From contig JAFSCX010000048.1 in assembly GCA_017436525.1 (NCBI GenBank), positions 1 through 48,298 on the forward strand: a stretch of DNA of 48,298 bases, read 5' to 3'. The DNA comes from Clostridia bacterium (GTDB lineage Bacteria > Bacillota > Clostridia > Oscillospirales > QAKW01). Below, piece after piece: positions 15,836-36,858 of this stretch. Every line of letters begins with the position of its first letter. Position 1 is the stretch's first letter. The notes beneath the pieces are model-generated. The model was not told the DNA's origin, made no database searches, and saw only the letters and a list, made by a program, of their open reading frames with translations. The translations under genes were made by a program, and so were the position numbers.

Positions 15836-16171
15836 AACCGCTGAAAAGCGGCACTTCTTCCGCCTTTCCGCTCTCGCCGTATCGATATACGCTTATCGAT
15901 CGGAGAAAGCGAAAGCTGCACCACTTTTGAGCGGTTTTCAGCGAATTTTGAAAAGCGGCACTTCTTCCACCTTTCTGCTCTCGCCGTATCGATATACGCT
16001 TATCGATCGGAGAAAGCGAAAGCTGCACCACTTTTGAGCGGTTTTCAGCGAATTTTGAAAAGCGGCACTTCTTCCGCCTTTCCGCTCTCGCCGTATCGAT
16101 ATACGCTTATCGATCGGAGAAAGCGAAAGCTGCACCACTTTTGAGCGGTTTTCAGCGAATTTTGAAAAGCG
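15834..16171. repeat. Three tandem 107-bp palindromic repeats
   Basis: Three copies with an exact 107-base period start at 15844, 15951 and 16058, with a truncated start of a fourth at 16165. Copies 1 and 3 look identical, and copy 2 differs at two positions (CACC for CGCC and TCTG for TCCG). The first unit has imperfect terminal inverted repeats, AAAACCGCTGAAAAGCGG (15834-15851) and CCACTTTTGAGCGGTTTT (15921-15938). Each unit has a central palindrome, GCCGTAT-CGAT-ATACGC, flanked by TTTCC-rich and GGAAA-rich arms. The array begins inside the stop codon of the ABC exporter gene. No protein in it is credible. Spacer content is not variable, so it is not CRISPR. Confidence 0.85.
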
Positions 16172-16194
16172 GTATAAAAATTTCAATTAAAATT

Positions 16195-16231
16195 AAAATC
16201 GGGAAGTGCATTTTGCACTTCCCGATTTTTT
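16195..16231. terminator. Bidirectional terminator between exporter and serS
   Basis: A 16-bp stem, AAAATCGGGAAGTGCA with TGCACTTCCCGATTTT, has a TTT loop, a T run on the right and an A tract on the left. It can end the exporter operon on the plus strand and transcripts emerging from the serS hairpin array on the minus strand. Confidence 0.85.
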
Positions 16232-16239
16232 CCTTATCA

Positions 16240-16370
16240 TTTTCCCGATAGGGAAAATCTTTCACTTTGCTTGAAAAGCAAAATTTCACTCCGCCGAAAG
16301 GCGGAATTTCACTTTCTGCCGAACGGCAGAAAATTTCACTGATTGTATGGAAATTTATTTCCGTACAATC
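16240..16370 (-). repeat. Five-hairpin array after serS
   Basis: Five hairpins follow one another with almost constant spacers. They are TTTTCCC/GGGAAAA (16240-16257), TTTGCTT/AAGCAAA (16266-16282), CCGCC/GGCGG (16291-16304), TTCTGCCG/CGGCAGAA (16314-16331), and a 13-bp stem (16341-16353 with 16358-16370, one G-T pair). The spacers are (A/T)(A/C)TTTCACT, read on the serS strand as AGTGAAATT. The last stem contains the final codons of serS and its stop codon lies in the loop. Stem sequences differ completely while the form is kept. The array is probably transcribed as the serS 3' untranslated region. A similar array follows the U32 gene at 34709-34828. Confidence 0.85.
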
Positions 16371-17650
16371 TTCTCCATGCCGCCCATATAAGGCCGCAGC
16401 GCCTCAGGGATTCTTACGCTATAATTCTCGCCATCGAATTCCAGATTATTCTCCAAGAAGGCGATCAACATTCTGGGCGGAGCCACGACGGTATTATTGA
16501 GGGTATGGGCAAGATACTTTTTGCCGTCCTCCCCTTTGACGCGAATGCCCAGTCTTCTTGCCTGCGCATCGCCCAGATTGGAGCAGGAGCATACTTCAAA
16601 ATATTTGCCCTGCTTGGGAGACCAAGCTTCCACATCGTAGGATTTCACCTTCAGATCGGCCAGATCACCGGTGCAGCACTCCAAGGTGCGTACGGGGATA
16701 TCCAGAGAGCGGAAGAGCTCTACAGAATAGCTCCACATTTTATTGAACCAATCCATGCTCTCCTCGGGCTTGCAGATGACAATCATTTCCTGCTTCTCGA
16801 ATTGATGGATGCGATAGATGCCTCTCTCCTCGATACCATGAGCACCCTTCTCCTTGCGGAAGCAGGGCGAATAGCTGGTTAAGGTCAGGGGCAGAGCGCT
16901 TTCGGGGGTGATGGTATCGATGAATTTACCGATCATGGAATGCTCGCTGGTGCCGATCAGATAAAGATCTTCCCCCTCGATCTTATACATCATGGCGTCC
17001 ATTTCCTCAAAGCTCATAACGCCGGTTACCACATTGCTGCGGATCATGAAGGGGGGCACGCAATAGGTAAAGCCCTTATTGATCATGAAATCTCTGGCAT
17101 AGGAGAGGACCGCGCTGTGAAGGCGGGCAATATCGCCCATCAGATAATAGAAGCCCTCGCCTGCCACCTTGCCTGCTGCCTCTTTATCGATGCCTGCAAA
17201 GTGGGCCATAATATCGGTATGATAGGGGATCTCAAAATCCACCTTGGTCTGCTCGCCGTATTGGCAGACCTCTACATTCTCTTCGTCATTTTTTCCCACA
17301 GGGACACTATCGTCTACAATATTGGGAATCTGCATCATGATTTCCTGCAGCCGCTTAGCAAGCTCGCCCTCTTTCGCCTGCAGCTCGGCAAGCTCTGCTG
17401 CCTGCGCACCTACTTGCTTTTTAATCTCCTCGGCCTCTTCTCTTTGGCCCTTTGCCATCAAGCCGCCGATTTGCTTGCTCAGGCGGTTGCGGTTGGCCCG
17501 CAGATCATCGGCCCGCTTATTGGAGGCAAGCTTTTCATCATAGACTGCGATGGCTTCATCCACCAAGGGCAGCTTATGATCCTTGAATTTCTTGCGGATA
17601 TTCTCTTTTACAAGCTCGGGGTTTTCTTTCAAAAATTTAATGTCCAGCAT
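16355..17650 (-). CDS. serS: Seryl-tRNA synthetase
   Basis: Charges tRNA-Ser with serine (class II synthetase). The protein has 431 residues, the normal size. The N-terminal coiled-coil arm that grips the tRNA spans about 30-105 (charged heptads such as EEAEEIKKQVGAQAAELAEL). Motif 2 is FRKEKGAHGIEERGIYRIHQ (about 272-291). Motif 3 reads TLNNTVVAPPRMLIAFLEN (about 390-408), a variant of the more usual TLNGSGLAVGR. The start has the RBS AAAGGAG. Upstream on the same strand, 30 bases away, is the ATP-grasp gene, so serS may share the transcript starting before the helix-turn-helix gene. No T-box leader is visible. The 3' end is embedded in a hairpin array. Confidence 0.95.
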   Translation of the reverse strand: MLDIKFLKENPELVKENIRKKFKDHKLPLVDEAIAVYDEKLASNKRADDLRANRNRLSKQIGGLMAKGQREEAEEIKKQVGAQAAELAELQAKEGELAKRLQEIMMQIPNIVDDSVPVGKNDEENVEVCQYGEQTKVDFEIPYHTDIMAHFAGIDKEAAGKVAGEGFYYLMGDIARLHSAVLSYARDFMINKGFTYCVPPFMIRSNVVTGVMSFEEMDAMMYKIEGEDLYLIGTSEHSMIGKFIDTITPESALPLTLTSYSPCFRKEKGAHGIEERGIYRIHQFEKQEMIVICKPEESMDWFNKMWSYSVELFRSLDIPVRTLECCTGDLADLKVKSYDVEAWSPKQGKYFEVCSCSNLGDAQARRLGIRVKGEDGKKYLAHTLNNTVVAPPRMLIAFLENNLEFDGENYSVRIPEALRPYMGGMEKIVRK

Positions 17651-24125: not shown

Positions 24126-24414
24126 AAAATAAAAATCCCAAGTATTCCAAAAAGGAATACTTGGGACAGAAAACAAAATTTTCTGCGGTGCCACCCAAAT
24201 TGATGAATCTCATCCGCTTTGCTCCGCACGATCATGCGGCTCGCGACGATAACGGGCGCGCCCCGTCAACTGCTACTTGCAAAAAAATCCTTTTTGCTTT
24301 CGGTTGCCCTCATAAGCCCATTCAGATCTCCTTCCGCTACCGCCATCCCACCATCGGCGGCTCTCTTAAAGTTTCTTAGAGATCCTACTCTTCTTAATCA
24401 AAGGTTTATTTATT
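24126..24414 (-). promoter_or_regulatory. Tryptophan T-box riboswitch leader of trpB
   Basis: The minus-strand leader has the parts of a T-box. The conserved antiterminator sequence GGGTGGCACCGCAGAA is at 24196-24181. A terminator follows at 24166-24126: TCCCAAGTATTCC and GGAATACTTGGGA around a 5-nt loop, then a T-rich run. Stem I begins AGTAGGATCTC and its 3' side reads GAGATCTGAATGGGC. The triplet opposite the AGTA motif is TGG (24320-24318), the tryptophan codon. Uncharged tRNA-Trp pairing with TGG and with the T-box bulge would stabilise antitermination and switch on trpB when tryptophan runs short. Confidence 0.92.
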
Positions 24415-34648: not shown

Positions 34649-34670
34649 TGGATTGAAAAACTTTGAATCA

Positions 34671-34702
34671 AAAAACTCGACCCATGGGGGTCGAGTTTTT
34701 TT
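34671..34702 (+). terminator. Terminator after the AEC transporter gene
   Basis: AAAAACTCGACCC (34671-34683) pairs with GGGTCGAGTTTTT (34688-34700) around ATGG, with seven T residues following. It is separated from the U32 gene end by the hairpin array. Confidence 0.88.
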
Positions 34703-34708
34703 CTTAAC

Positions 34709-34828
34709 GGCCCGCCTTTGGCGGGCCATATCACTTTTGCGAAGCAAAAATATCACTGCGTCGCCAGACGCAATACCACTGCGTCGTAAGACGCAATATC
34801 ACTGTAAGGCGAATGGAATTCGCCTTAC
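34709..34828 (-). repeat. Five-hairpin array after the U32 gene
   Basis: Five hairpins occur in a row: GGCCCGCC/GGCGGGCC (34709-34727), TTTGC/GCAAA (34736-34748), GCGTC/GACGC (34758-34771), a second GCGTC/GACGC with a different loop (34781-34794), and GTAAGGCGAAT/ATTCGCCTTAC (34804-34828). The spacers are ATATCACT, AATATCACT, AATACCACT and AATATCACT, read on the gene strand as AGTGATATT. The last stem is a perfect 11 bp and its right arm contains the TAA stop codon of the U32 gene. The design is the same as in the array after serS, with almost no shared stem sequence. Confidence 0.85.
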
Positions 34829-36858
34829 CATACGCCTCTATAATAAAGCCCCCTTGTATATTCTTCCGGTGTTTCTTTCGCGCCCTTGCGATATTGAAGG
34901 ATGATCTTCATGATTTCATCGGGCCGCTCATCCGTAAAAAGAAGCCGCCCGAAGGCGACTCCCGCCGATTGCCATTCCCGATTACGGTCGGCAAGGAAAA
35001 GGGGCGCATTATTAAAGAGGGTGTTGGTGCAACGGTGGCCGCAGGCGATGGGGAAGCGGCGGCCGGTGCGGTCGGTGATGGTGCCGCCTGCGCCTTTGCG
35101 GCAGGGGCCGACATTTTTGAGGATGCAATTGACCGTCTCCATCAAGGGCAGCCGCCCATAGACGATGATTCCCGCAGGGAGGGGCTTTGGAATCTGCCGG
35201 AGCTGCTTGAGGGTCAGCTCAAAAGAAAGGGTTGCTTCCGAGAGATGGCCGGCAAGGGTGCGAAGGCTATGGCCGTTGGCAAGGTTAAGCCCGTAATCTC
35301 CGTGGAGCGTAAAGCCCATTTTTTGAAGGGGCAGGATCTGCCCTATATTGCGGATCAGCCCATGGCGAAAGCCGGCGCCATAGAGGGTGCTTGCCAGCGA
35401 GAGCAACTCTTTTTCGCTGATAAATGCAGGGAAGAAGACCCCGCATTTCGGCTCTTTGCCAAAGGGGATGCATTGCTCCGGCTTTGCGGCGTTGAGCCAG
35501 CAAAAATCAAGGCGGGCAAGGGCATCGCTACGCAAATTCTCAGGGCGATGATACCATCCTTCCAGCCGCGGCTCTCCTTGATGATCGGCCTTGGGAACGG
35601 GAGAGACTCCTTGGGGGATAAAGGGATGGGCTTTAGGCGCAAAATGGGCAGTCAGGCGGGAGAGGGCCTCTCTGCGCAAGGCATTAAAAGCGGCGGCAGA
35701 ATAAAAGAGATCATGCTCGATGCGCGCCGTGAATTTTTCAAGGTAGAAGGGGGTGCCGCCCAGCTTGCCCAAAGAGCGTGCGGCGTCTTCTTCGGTGATC
35801 TCTCGCTTAAGGGCGGGGGCGGGAGCTTCCGGCTCCATGGAGAAGGTATAGCCATCGCAGGTGGTCTCCAATCGGCAGTAGCCCTCTCGCATGATGAGAT
35901 AGAAAGAGACCCCTCTTTTTTTAGGCTCATAGCCTTCCTCCAAGGTCTTGGATACGGCGGCAACCGCCGCTTTATAATCGGCGTACTCCGTCTTGGTCTT
36001 GGTGCCGAACATTTGGGGGCCCAAGCGGCCGGTCAGATAGCCGGCCGTAAATCCGCCCCTTGCAAAAATGTGCGCCAATTGGGTGATGGTTTCTTGGGTG
36101 GCGGGGGCACCGTCGATGCAATTTCGATAGGCGGCGGTAACGCTGCCTACATATTCGGGAGATTTTAATCTTCCTTCAATTTTCAGAGAAGCAACGCCCG
36201 CCTCTTTGAGGGCGGAAAGATGCTCAAGGGTGCAAAGATCCTTGAGGCTCAAGGGATATTGCCCCCCTTCATAAGGCAGGCGGCAGGGCTGCGCGCAAAG
36301 GCCACGATTGCCGCTTTTTTGGCCTGCCACTGCGGAAAACAGACAATTTCCGCTGCAGCTCATGCAGAGCGCTCCATGGGCAAAGACCTCAATTTCCAAT
36401 CCGCATTTGCAAAGAGAGGCAATCTGCTCAAGAGGCAATTCTCTTGCCAGCACCACCCGCGAAAAACCCAGCTCTTTCAAAAAGAGGATGCCGCTTTCGC
36501 TATGAATATTCATTTGAGTGGAGGCATGAAGGGGCAAAGAAGGGCAGAGCTCATGAAGCACTTTTGCTGCGCCGAGATCCGAGACAATGGCAGCATCGGC
36601 GCCGCTTTTTGCAATATCTTCAGCGAGGGCATAAAGCTCTTCCATCTCCTCTTCCCGCACCAGTGTATTGACGGTTACATAGACCTTCACCTTCCTCAGA
36701 TGGCAATAGGCCACGATCTCTTTGAGCGCGTCTCCATCAAAGCCGCAAGCAGCGCGGCGGGCATTGAGGGTCTTTCCGCCCAAATAGATGGCATCCGCTC
36801 CGTTGCGAACGGCGCTGACAGCCGCTTCAAAATTACCTGCAGGTGCTAAAAGCTCCAT
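34825..36858 (-). CDS. U32 family peptidase
   Basis: A 677-residue protein of the U32 (collagenase-like) family. The N-terminal part is TIM-barrel-like, beginning MELLAPAGNFEAAVSAVRNGADAIYLG. The family signature is EVFAHGALCMSCSGNC (about 154-169), with cysteines continuing in CAQPCRLPY (about 186-194), suggesting an iron-sulfur or metal site. The C-terminal half (about 380-600) corresponds to the extended form of the family. Better-studied relatives act in tRNA or ubiquinone hydroxylation rather than proteolysis, so the peptidase name may mislead. The RBS AAAGGAGG is strong. Its stop codon lies in the stem of the hairpin array. Confidence 0.88.
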   Translation of the reverse strand: MELLAPAGNFEAAVSAVRNGADAIYLGGKTLNARRAACGFDGDALKEIVAYCHLRKVKVYVTVNTLVREEEMEELYALAEDIAKSGADAAIVSDLGAAKVLHELCPSLPLHASTQMNIHSESGILFLKELGFSRVVLARELPLEQIASLCKCGLEIEVFAHGALCMSCSGNCLFSAVAGQKSGNRGLCAQPCRLPYEGGQYPLSLKDLCTLEHLSALKEAGVASLKIEGRLKSPEYVGSVTAAYRNCIDGAPATQETITQLAHIFARGGFTAGYLTGRLGPQMFGTKTKTEYADYKAAVAAVSKTLEEGYEPKKRGVSFYLIMREGYCRLETTCDGYTFSMEPEAPAPALKREITEEDAARSLGKLGGTPFYLEKFTARIEHDLFYSAAAFNALRREALSRLTAHFAPKAHPFIPQGVSPVPKADHQGEPRLEGWYHRPENLRSDALARLDFCWLNAAKPEQCIPFGKEPKCGVFFPAFISEKELLSLASTLYGAGFRHGLIRNIGQILPLQKMGFTLHGDYGLNLANGHSLRTLAGHLSEATLSFELTLKQLRQIPKPLPAGIIVYGRLPLMETVNCILKNVGPCRKGAGGTITDRTGRRFPIACGHRCTNTLFNNAPLFLADRNREWQSAGVAFGRLLFTDERPDEIMKIILQYRKGAKETPEEYTRGLYYRGVW

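Follow-up and report, generated by a model that had tools for sequence, protein, structure and literature searches.

Two arrays of short hairpins lie at gene ends in the window (the whole stretch of 48,298 nucleotides that was analysed), one after a gene for a U32-family peptidase and the other after serS. The U32 array consists of five perfect minus-strand hairpins at 34709-34828, with GTGATAT-type linkers between them. It starts on the stop codon of the peptidase gene (TAA, 34825-34827, in the 5' arm of hairpin H0) and ends ahead of an intact terminator. Examination of the minus strand confirmed what the preliminary description had reported, a five-hairpin array with the TAA inside a perfect 11-bp stem. 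The features of this array, from the gene outwards, are as follows.

34825-36858, minus: U32-family peptidase gene (Peptidase_U32 and DUF3656), stop codon within H0
34804-34828, minus: H0, GTAAGGCGAAT-TCC-ATTCGCCTTAC, perfect 11-bp stem; loop TCC, GGA on the other strand
34796-34802, minus: linker GTGATAT (H0/H1)
34780-34795, minus: H1, TGCGTC-TTAC-GACGCA; GTAA loop on the opposite strand
34773-34779, minus: linker GTGGTAT (H1/H2)
34757-34772, minus: H2, TGCGTC-TGGC-GACGCA; GCCA loop on the opposite strand; imperfect duplicate of H1
34750-34756, minus: linker GTGATAT (H2/H3)
34735-34749, minus: H3, TTTTGC-TTC-GCAAAA; GAA triloop on the opposite strand
34728-34734, minus: linker GTGATAT (H3/H4)
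34709-34727, minus: H4, GGCCCGCC-AAA-GGCGGGCC; the loop AAA is an exception to the GNA rule described below
34703-34708, minus: end motif GTTAAG, with the terminator A-tract directly after it
34670-34701, minus: intact intrinsic terminator AAAAAACTCGACCC-CCAT-GGGTCGAGTTTTTT, downstream of the array

With the end motif included, the U32 element reaches 34703. The terminator at 34670-34701 is probably the host U32 gene's own, judging by orthologues, which have a terminator right after the stop. H1 and H2 form an imperfect 23-bp tandem duplication with differing loops, which bears out the local duplication that had been suspected from their shared GCGTC/GACGC stems. In 4.8 Mb of simulated sequence, made as 100 first-order Markov copies of the window, no array of at least two such hairpins appeared, and AGTGATATT occurs 62 times in the genome versus 5 times for its reversed control.

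The serS array spans 16239-16370 in all and, as had been noticed beforehand, has the same design with one change in the spacer, which reads GTGAAAT here versus GTGATAT (once GTGGTAT) at U32.

16355-17650, minus: serS, seryl-tRNA synthetase
16341-16370, minus: H0; 5' arm made up of the final serS codons and the stop, 3' arm an inverted copy of these with one mismatch
16239-16340, minus: GTGAAAT linkers and four hairpins
16197-16227, minus: intact terminator after the array

Directly downstream of this terminator, at 15842-16172, lies a 107-bp tandem repeat in three near-identical (98%) copies. The window also contains a T-box leader above the Rfam cut-off at 24159-24410 on the minus strand.

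Gut-1 as a dispersed repeat

Both arrays meet the cut-off (50 bits) of the covariance model for Gut-1, Rfam family RF01706.

34723-34804, minus: Gut-1 match in the U32 array, 51.6 bits (cut-off 50)
16254-16341, minus: Gut-1 match in the serS array, 55.4 bits (cut-off 50)

Gut-1 was defined in 2010 by Weinberg et al. solely from human-gut metagenome sequence and was listed as certainly an RNA, unaffiliated with mRNAs (PMC2864571). The Rfam entry describes an sRNA known only from human-gut metagenomes, and in the literature searched the accession RF01706 is named by PMC2864571 alone. The genome to which the window belongs (G000, 1.75 Mb) gave 33 Gut-1 matches at about 26 places, five of them above the Rfam cut-off and the weakest few doubtful. 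Its relatives carry from 0 to 51 matches per genome, with Gut-1 present in 32 of 59, and 36 of 291 genomes sampled from the class were positive, scattered over many families. Given these copy numbers and this scatter, Gut-1 is a dispersed repeat with a patchy distribution across Clostridia, and the Rfam Gut-1 RNA is a catalogued piece of a dispersed family of DNA elements. The motif, which in the 2010 survey was represented by human-gut metagenome reads alone, now gains hosts and a genomic context.

Two further features of the arrays in G000 concern their internal arrangement. At C57:7400-7880 (L036, L087) an array is tandemly duplicated together with its flanks, at a spacing of 285 bp and in almost identical copies. 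Additionally, one longer module, a bulged hairpin (TCTTTTGGAATA...TATTCCAAAAGA), turns up repeatedly at varying positions in the arrays of C28, C29, C39, C57, and C11, where the hairpin modules look as if they had been shuffled.

Gene ends, empty sites and composites

Genes in the stretches around arrays from seven genomes were called with a home-made codon-usage caller. Simple arrays were co-oriented with the upstream gene in 29 of 31 cases (p 5e-7); once set to one orientation, 15 lay in convergent gaps, 14 in tandem gaps running with the array, 2 in tandem gaps running against it, and none in divergent gaps, compared with 78 divergent among the 242 array-free gaps of the same DNA (p 2.4e-5), the remainder of which were 34 convergent and 130 tandem. 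The bias toward gene 3' ends and toward one orientation, which the preliminary description had proposed from two loci, therefore holds well beyond them. The flanking genes are unrelated and ordinary, and arrays were also found after tRNA and tmRNA genes.

Homologous sites without an array were found for both loci of the window. U32 orthologues within the genus (61-63% identity) carry no array where the stop was readable, and one of them, in G004, keeps the same convergent neighbour; G002 was left out of the clear empty sites because its reading missed the true stop. Arrays are likewise missing from four serS orthologues in the genus (88-90% identity). These array-free orthologues fit insertion at both genes. 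No target-site duplication was established, and the candidate TAAG at U32 was dropped because GTTNAAGG is a conserved end of the element even where the stop is TGA or TAG.

In the relatives and elsewhere in this genome we found 39 composites, each consisting of two arrays placed head to head about 20 bp apart and holding no gene. Composites lay in 16 convergent, 14 tandem, and 4 divergent gaps, an enrichment in convergent gaps (16 of 34 versus 34 of 242 array-free gaps, p 2.7e-5). Six copies in G034 align as one element of ~356 bp, from the left hairpin TTGGCGTGATACTC... to ...GGACATCACCCATT, between unrelated flanks. In the five copies readable to the right end, the flanks are mutually complementary, with A-runs before and T-runs after; each pair of flanks forms the arms of a host terminator, different from copy to copy, that holds the element in its loop. 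Of 37 composites, 7 passed a strict test for terminator arms (0.8 expected from permuted flanks), as did 2 of 36 other clusters (0 expected); looser cases of a split terminator include L083 and L085 in G000. At metY, the congener G053 has an intact terminator, AAAACGCCCGC-GAAA-GCGGGCGTTT, just after the stop, and at the same place G034 reads AAAACCCCCGAAGA-element-TCTTCGGGGGTTT. Furthermore, elements in different families share up to 93.5% identity over 215 bp. Taken together, the insertions in terminator loops, the empty metY terminator, and the similarity across families support mobility, including movement between lineages. The simple arrays of the window split no terminator; only composites do.

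It had also been suggested that the first hairpin is made by copying the gene end. This stood for serS H0 and for most composites, in which the 3' arm of the first hairpin repeats the flank inverted, across flanks as different as TATTCGCC, TATTCGTTCC, AAATCCACCC, and AAATTTGCCC; it did not extend to U32, where only the stop codon plus 3'-UTR is involved, or to the many arrays that start after the stop. Such pairing lends limited support to snap-back copying, from which it would follow, and selection for pairing could give the same result.

Several other aspects of the composites were recorded. A long-range switch between their proximal and distal arms was considered and dropped, as it is not kept in all copies (L191), and the pairing was taken as a trace of nesting. 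One composite lies directly after a tmRNA gene and its terminator (L189:3619-4330, G022); related elements adjoin tRNA genes in G000, G014, and G034, and several of them share the right flank with TTCGAATTCATAC. The right-hand segment of the G034 element was seen inverted beside other composites (L143, L190, L147), and the G034 element looks modular.

Loops and stems of the hairpins

Of the 226 different array hairpins that we collected, 205 have a triloop or a tetraloop. Read on the Gut-1 strand, the triloops were TNC in 72 cases versus GNA in 2, and the tetraloops TNNC in 57 versus GNNA in none, so that it is the opposite strand, with its 5'-ATATCAC linkers, that carries the C-GNA-G and C-GNNA-G caps (72 GNA and 57 GNNA among the 205 short loops; 129 versus 2 between the strands). 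The bias was seen in each of the seven genomes, and terminators in the same DNA lacked it (7 versus 5 triloops, 17 versus 17 tetraloops). Other inverted repeats in these loci show some excess of GNA/TNC as well (145 of 482 triloops), and the preference may therefore be partly general or come from unmasked pieces of arrays. In a third of the GNNA loops the third position is a pyrimidine, which would not be tolerated in RNA loops of the GNRA type, and about two thirds of the tetraloops would be GNRA-like in an RNA made from the opposite strand.

The stems were similarly distinctive, with 1189 Watson-Crick, 2 G-T, and 5 A-C pairs in arrays (G-T 2 of 1198 stem pairs) versus 2217, 91, and 25 in terminators (G-T 91 of 2355); the G-T and A-C mispairs are too few to tell which strand folds. 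Energies computed with ViennaRNA favoured the GNA strand only slightly, with DNA and RNA parameters alike.

There is precedent for such loops in DNA. Loops of the d(GNA) type closed by C-G are classic stable DNA loops (PMC5815330), and GNA loops form the tips of the palindromes that are lined up in Streptomyces telomeres (PMC7205883). The promoter hairpins of phage N4 extrude on one strand of supercoiled DNA while SSB melts the partner strand, and at the early promoters the hairpin is kept by the GNA strand only (PMC4496689). From the loop bias, the rarity of G-T pairs, and these precedents we infer that the strand with the 5'-ATATCAC linkers folds as DNA in the cell; the loops suggest folding as single-stranded DNA rather than as RNA. 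A loop test of this kind (GNA versus UUCG/GNRA, G-T content, and strand bias) is applicable to other doubtful RNA motifs.

These data bear directly on the view of Gut-1 as a structured noncoding RNA, transcribed from the gene strand, whose GUGAUAU linkers would bind a protein, either as a sponge RNA or as a 3'-UTR element. The strong covariation of the stems, the sense orientation of arrays after genes and before terminators, and the filing of Gut-1 as an RNA both by Rfam and by the 2010 paper (PMC2864571) speak for it. We nevertheless consider it unlikely, because the loops of the Gut-1 strand are UNC and UNNC and not the RNA-stabilising UUCG or GNRA (UNCG in 1 of 81 tetraloops), because G-U pairs are almost absent, because 0 to about 50 copies per genome follow unrelated genes including those for tRNA and tmRNA, and because head-to-head composites split host terminators.

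Probable mobilisation and comparison with known systems

Our preferred reading, to which we give a probability of roughly 55%, is that the U32 array is a simple form of a dispersed, gene-less, and probably mobile DNA family of uncultured Clostridia, which is non-autonomous and works probably as single-stranded DNA hairpins. We propose that the ATATCAC strand, which lies opposite the Gut-1 strand and is the template for the upstream gene, forms a series of highly stable mini-hairpins with C-GNA-G or C-GNNA-G caps and unpaired heptamers between them. A putative trans-acting enzyme that handles single-stranded DNA would recognise these GNA mini-hairpins and heptamers and would insert further copies wherever else the DNA can form hairpins, mainly at terminators, the hairpins found after genes. 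Placement at terminators would account for the gene-end position and the orientation of the arrays. A route of arrival shared with the composites is less certain for the window's simple arrays, since an intact terminator follows them.

We searched for a mobilising enzyme or vehicle among known classes. Y1/HUH transposases were rejected as they are absent from G000 (no PF01797 match) and from G014, G022, G034, G007, and G038. An IS110-type DEDD transposase (PF02371) occurs in 1 of 20 array-bearing genomes and not in G000, and no more than 8 of 20 array-rich genomes encode a reverse transcriptase; neither enzyme was retained. A scan of 88 proteins encoded beside arrays revealed no recurrent mobile-element family among the 25 most frequent. 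A phage vehicle was likewise set aside, as a scan of viral contigs gave almost only chance pairs of spacers. One IMG/VR contig filed as viral (L210, 4.2 kb) has a complete composite at L210:1370-1560, in a context that may be host DNA.

The result for Y1 transposases also bears on the view that the arrays are extragenic palindromes of the REP/BIME kind with a new class of tag, spread in trans by a Y1 transposase of the RAYT type that has since disappeared or diverged strongly. REPs likewise lie downstream of genes and in convergent gaps, form inverted pairs, and have hairpins with a conserved unpaired foot (PMC3733652). The foot of the array hairpins, however, is GTG[A/G][A/T]AT or similar and not GTAG or CGTC, the stem sequences are free rather than family-specific, G-T pairing is rare in arrays and described as frequent in REPs, and no RAYT/Y1 partner is encoded in G000 or the five further genomes named above; we regard this origin as very unlikely. 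Least probable of all are passive clusters, in which palindromes perfected by template switching at gene ends are tolerated there, are useful for termination, mRNA-end protection, or supercoil relief, and do not move, since the location between stop and terminator, the 23-bp H1/H2 duplication, and the tandem 285-bp array unit elsewhere in the genome agree with them but linkers and an end motif conserved across families, strand-biased loops, near-identical copies of ~350 bp at unrelated loci, and the empty homologous terminator at metY do not.

A bolder form of the mobile-DNA reading, which we offer tentatively and hold to be possible rather than probable, is that Gut-1, rather than an RNA, is the end by which widespread mobile single-stranded DNA elements of Clostridia are recognised; these would consist of one-strand rows of GNA-capped mini-hairpins, target terminator hairpins, be moved by an undescribed enzyme, and acquire the first hairpin when the flank at the target is copied by snap-back. 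The results as a whole suggest that an Rfam "RNA" family is really folded DNA. They also point to mobile elements that land in transcription terminators without a known transposase, and an undescribed enzyme for single-stranded DNA may await in common gut Clostridia.

Individual traits of the arrays recur in several known systems. The multiple-hairpin layout differs from the hairpin of integron attC sites. Group IIC introns target the hairpins of intrinsic terminators (PMC7923331), but the arrays have no ribozyme or reverse transcriptase and composites enter the terminator loop; loci with composites gave no group II intron match. The promoters of the virion RNA polymerase of phage N4 (PMC4496689) share the C-GNA-G hairpin, which in N4 extrudes strand-specifically from supercoiled DNA, but they are single hairpins that drive transcription, form no array, and are not mobile. 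REP/BIME elements of the GTAG and CGTC superfamilies (PMC3733652) are alike as non-autonomous palindromic repeats, often in inverted pairs, whereas the arrays have several different hairpins per unit, free stem sequence, and almost no G-T pairs. The 3' overhangs of Streptomyces telomeres (PMC7205883) are likewise rows of palindromes in which the GNA loops are conserved and the stem sequence is free, and they work as single-stranded DNA; these occupy chromosome ends only and have terminal proteins, whereas the arrays are internal, present in many copies, and joined by conserved heptamer linkers, those of the window and most others lying within contigs between ordinary genes and not at replicon ends. 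Finally, Gut-1 (RF01706) is the same sequence and structure family as the window arrays; its model describes three hairpins of one strand only as a human-gut sRNA, whereas the arrays described here are dispersed at 0 to about 50 copies per genome and have loops that fit the other DNA strand.
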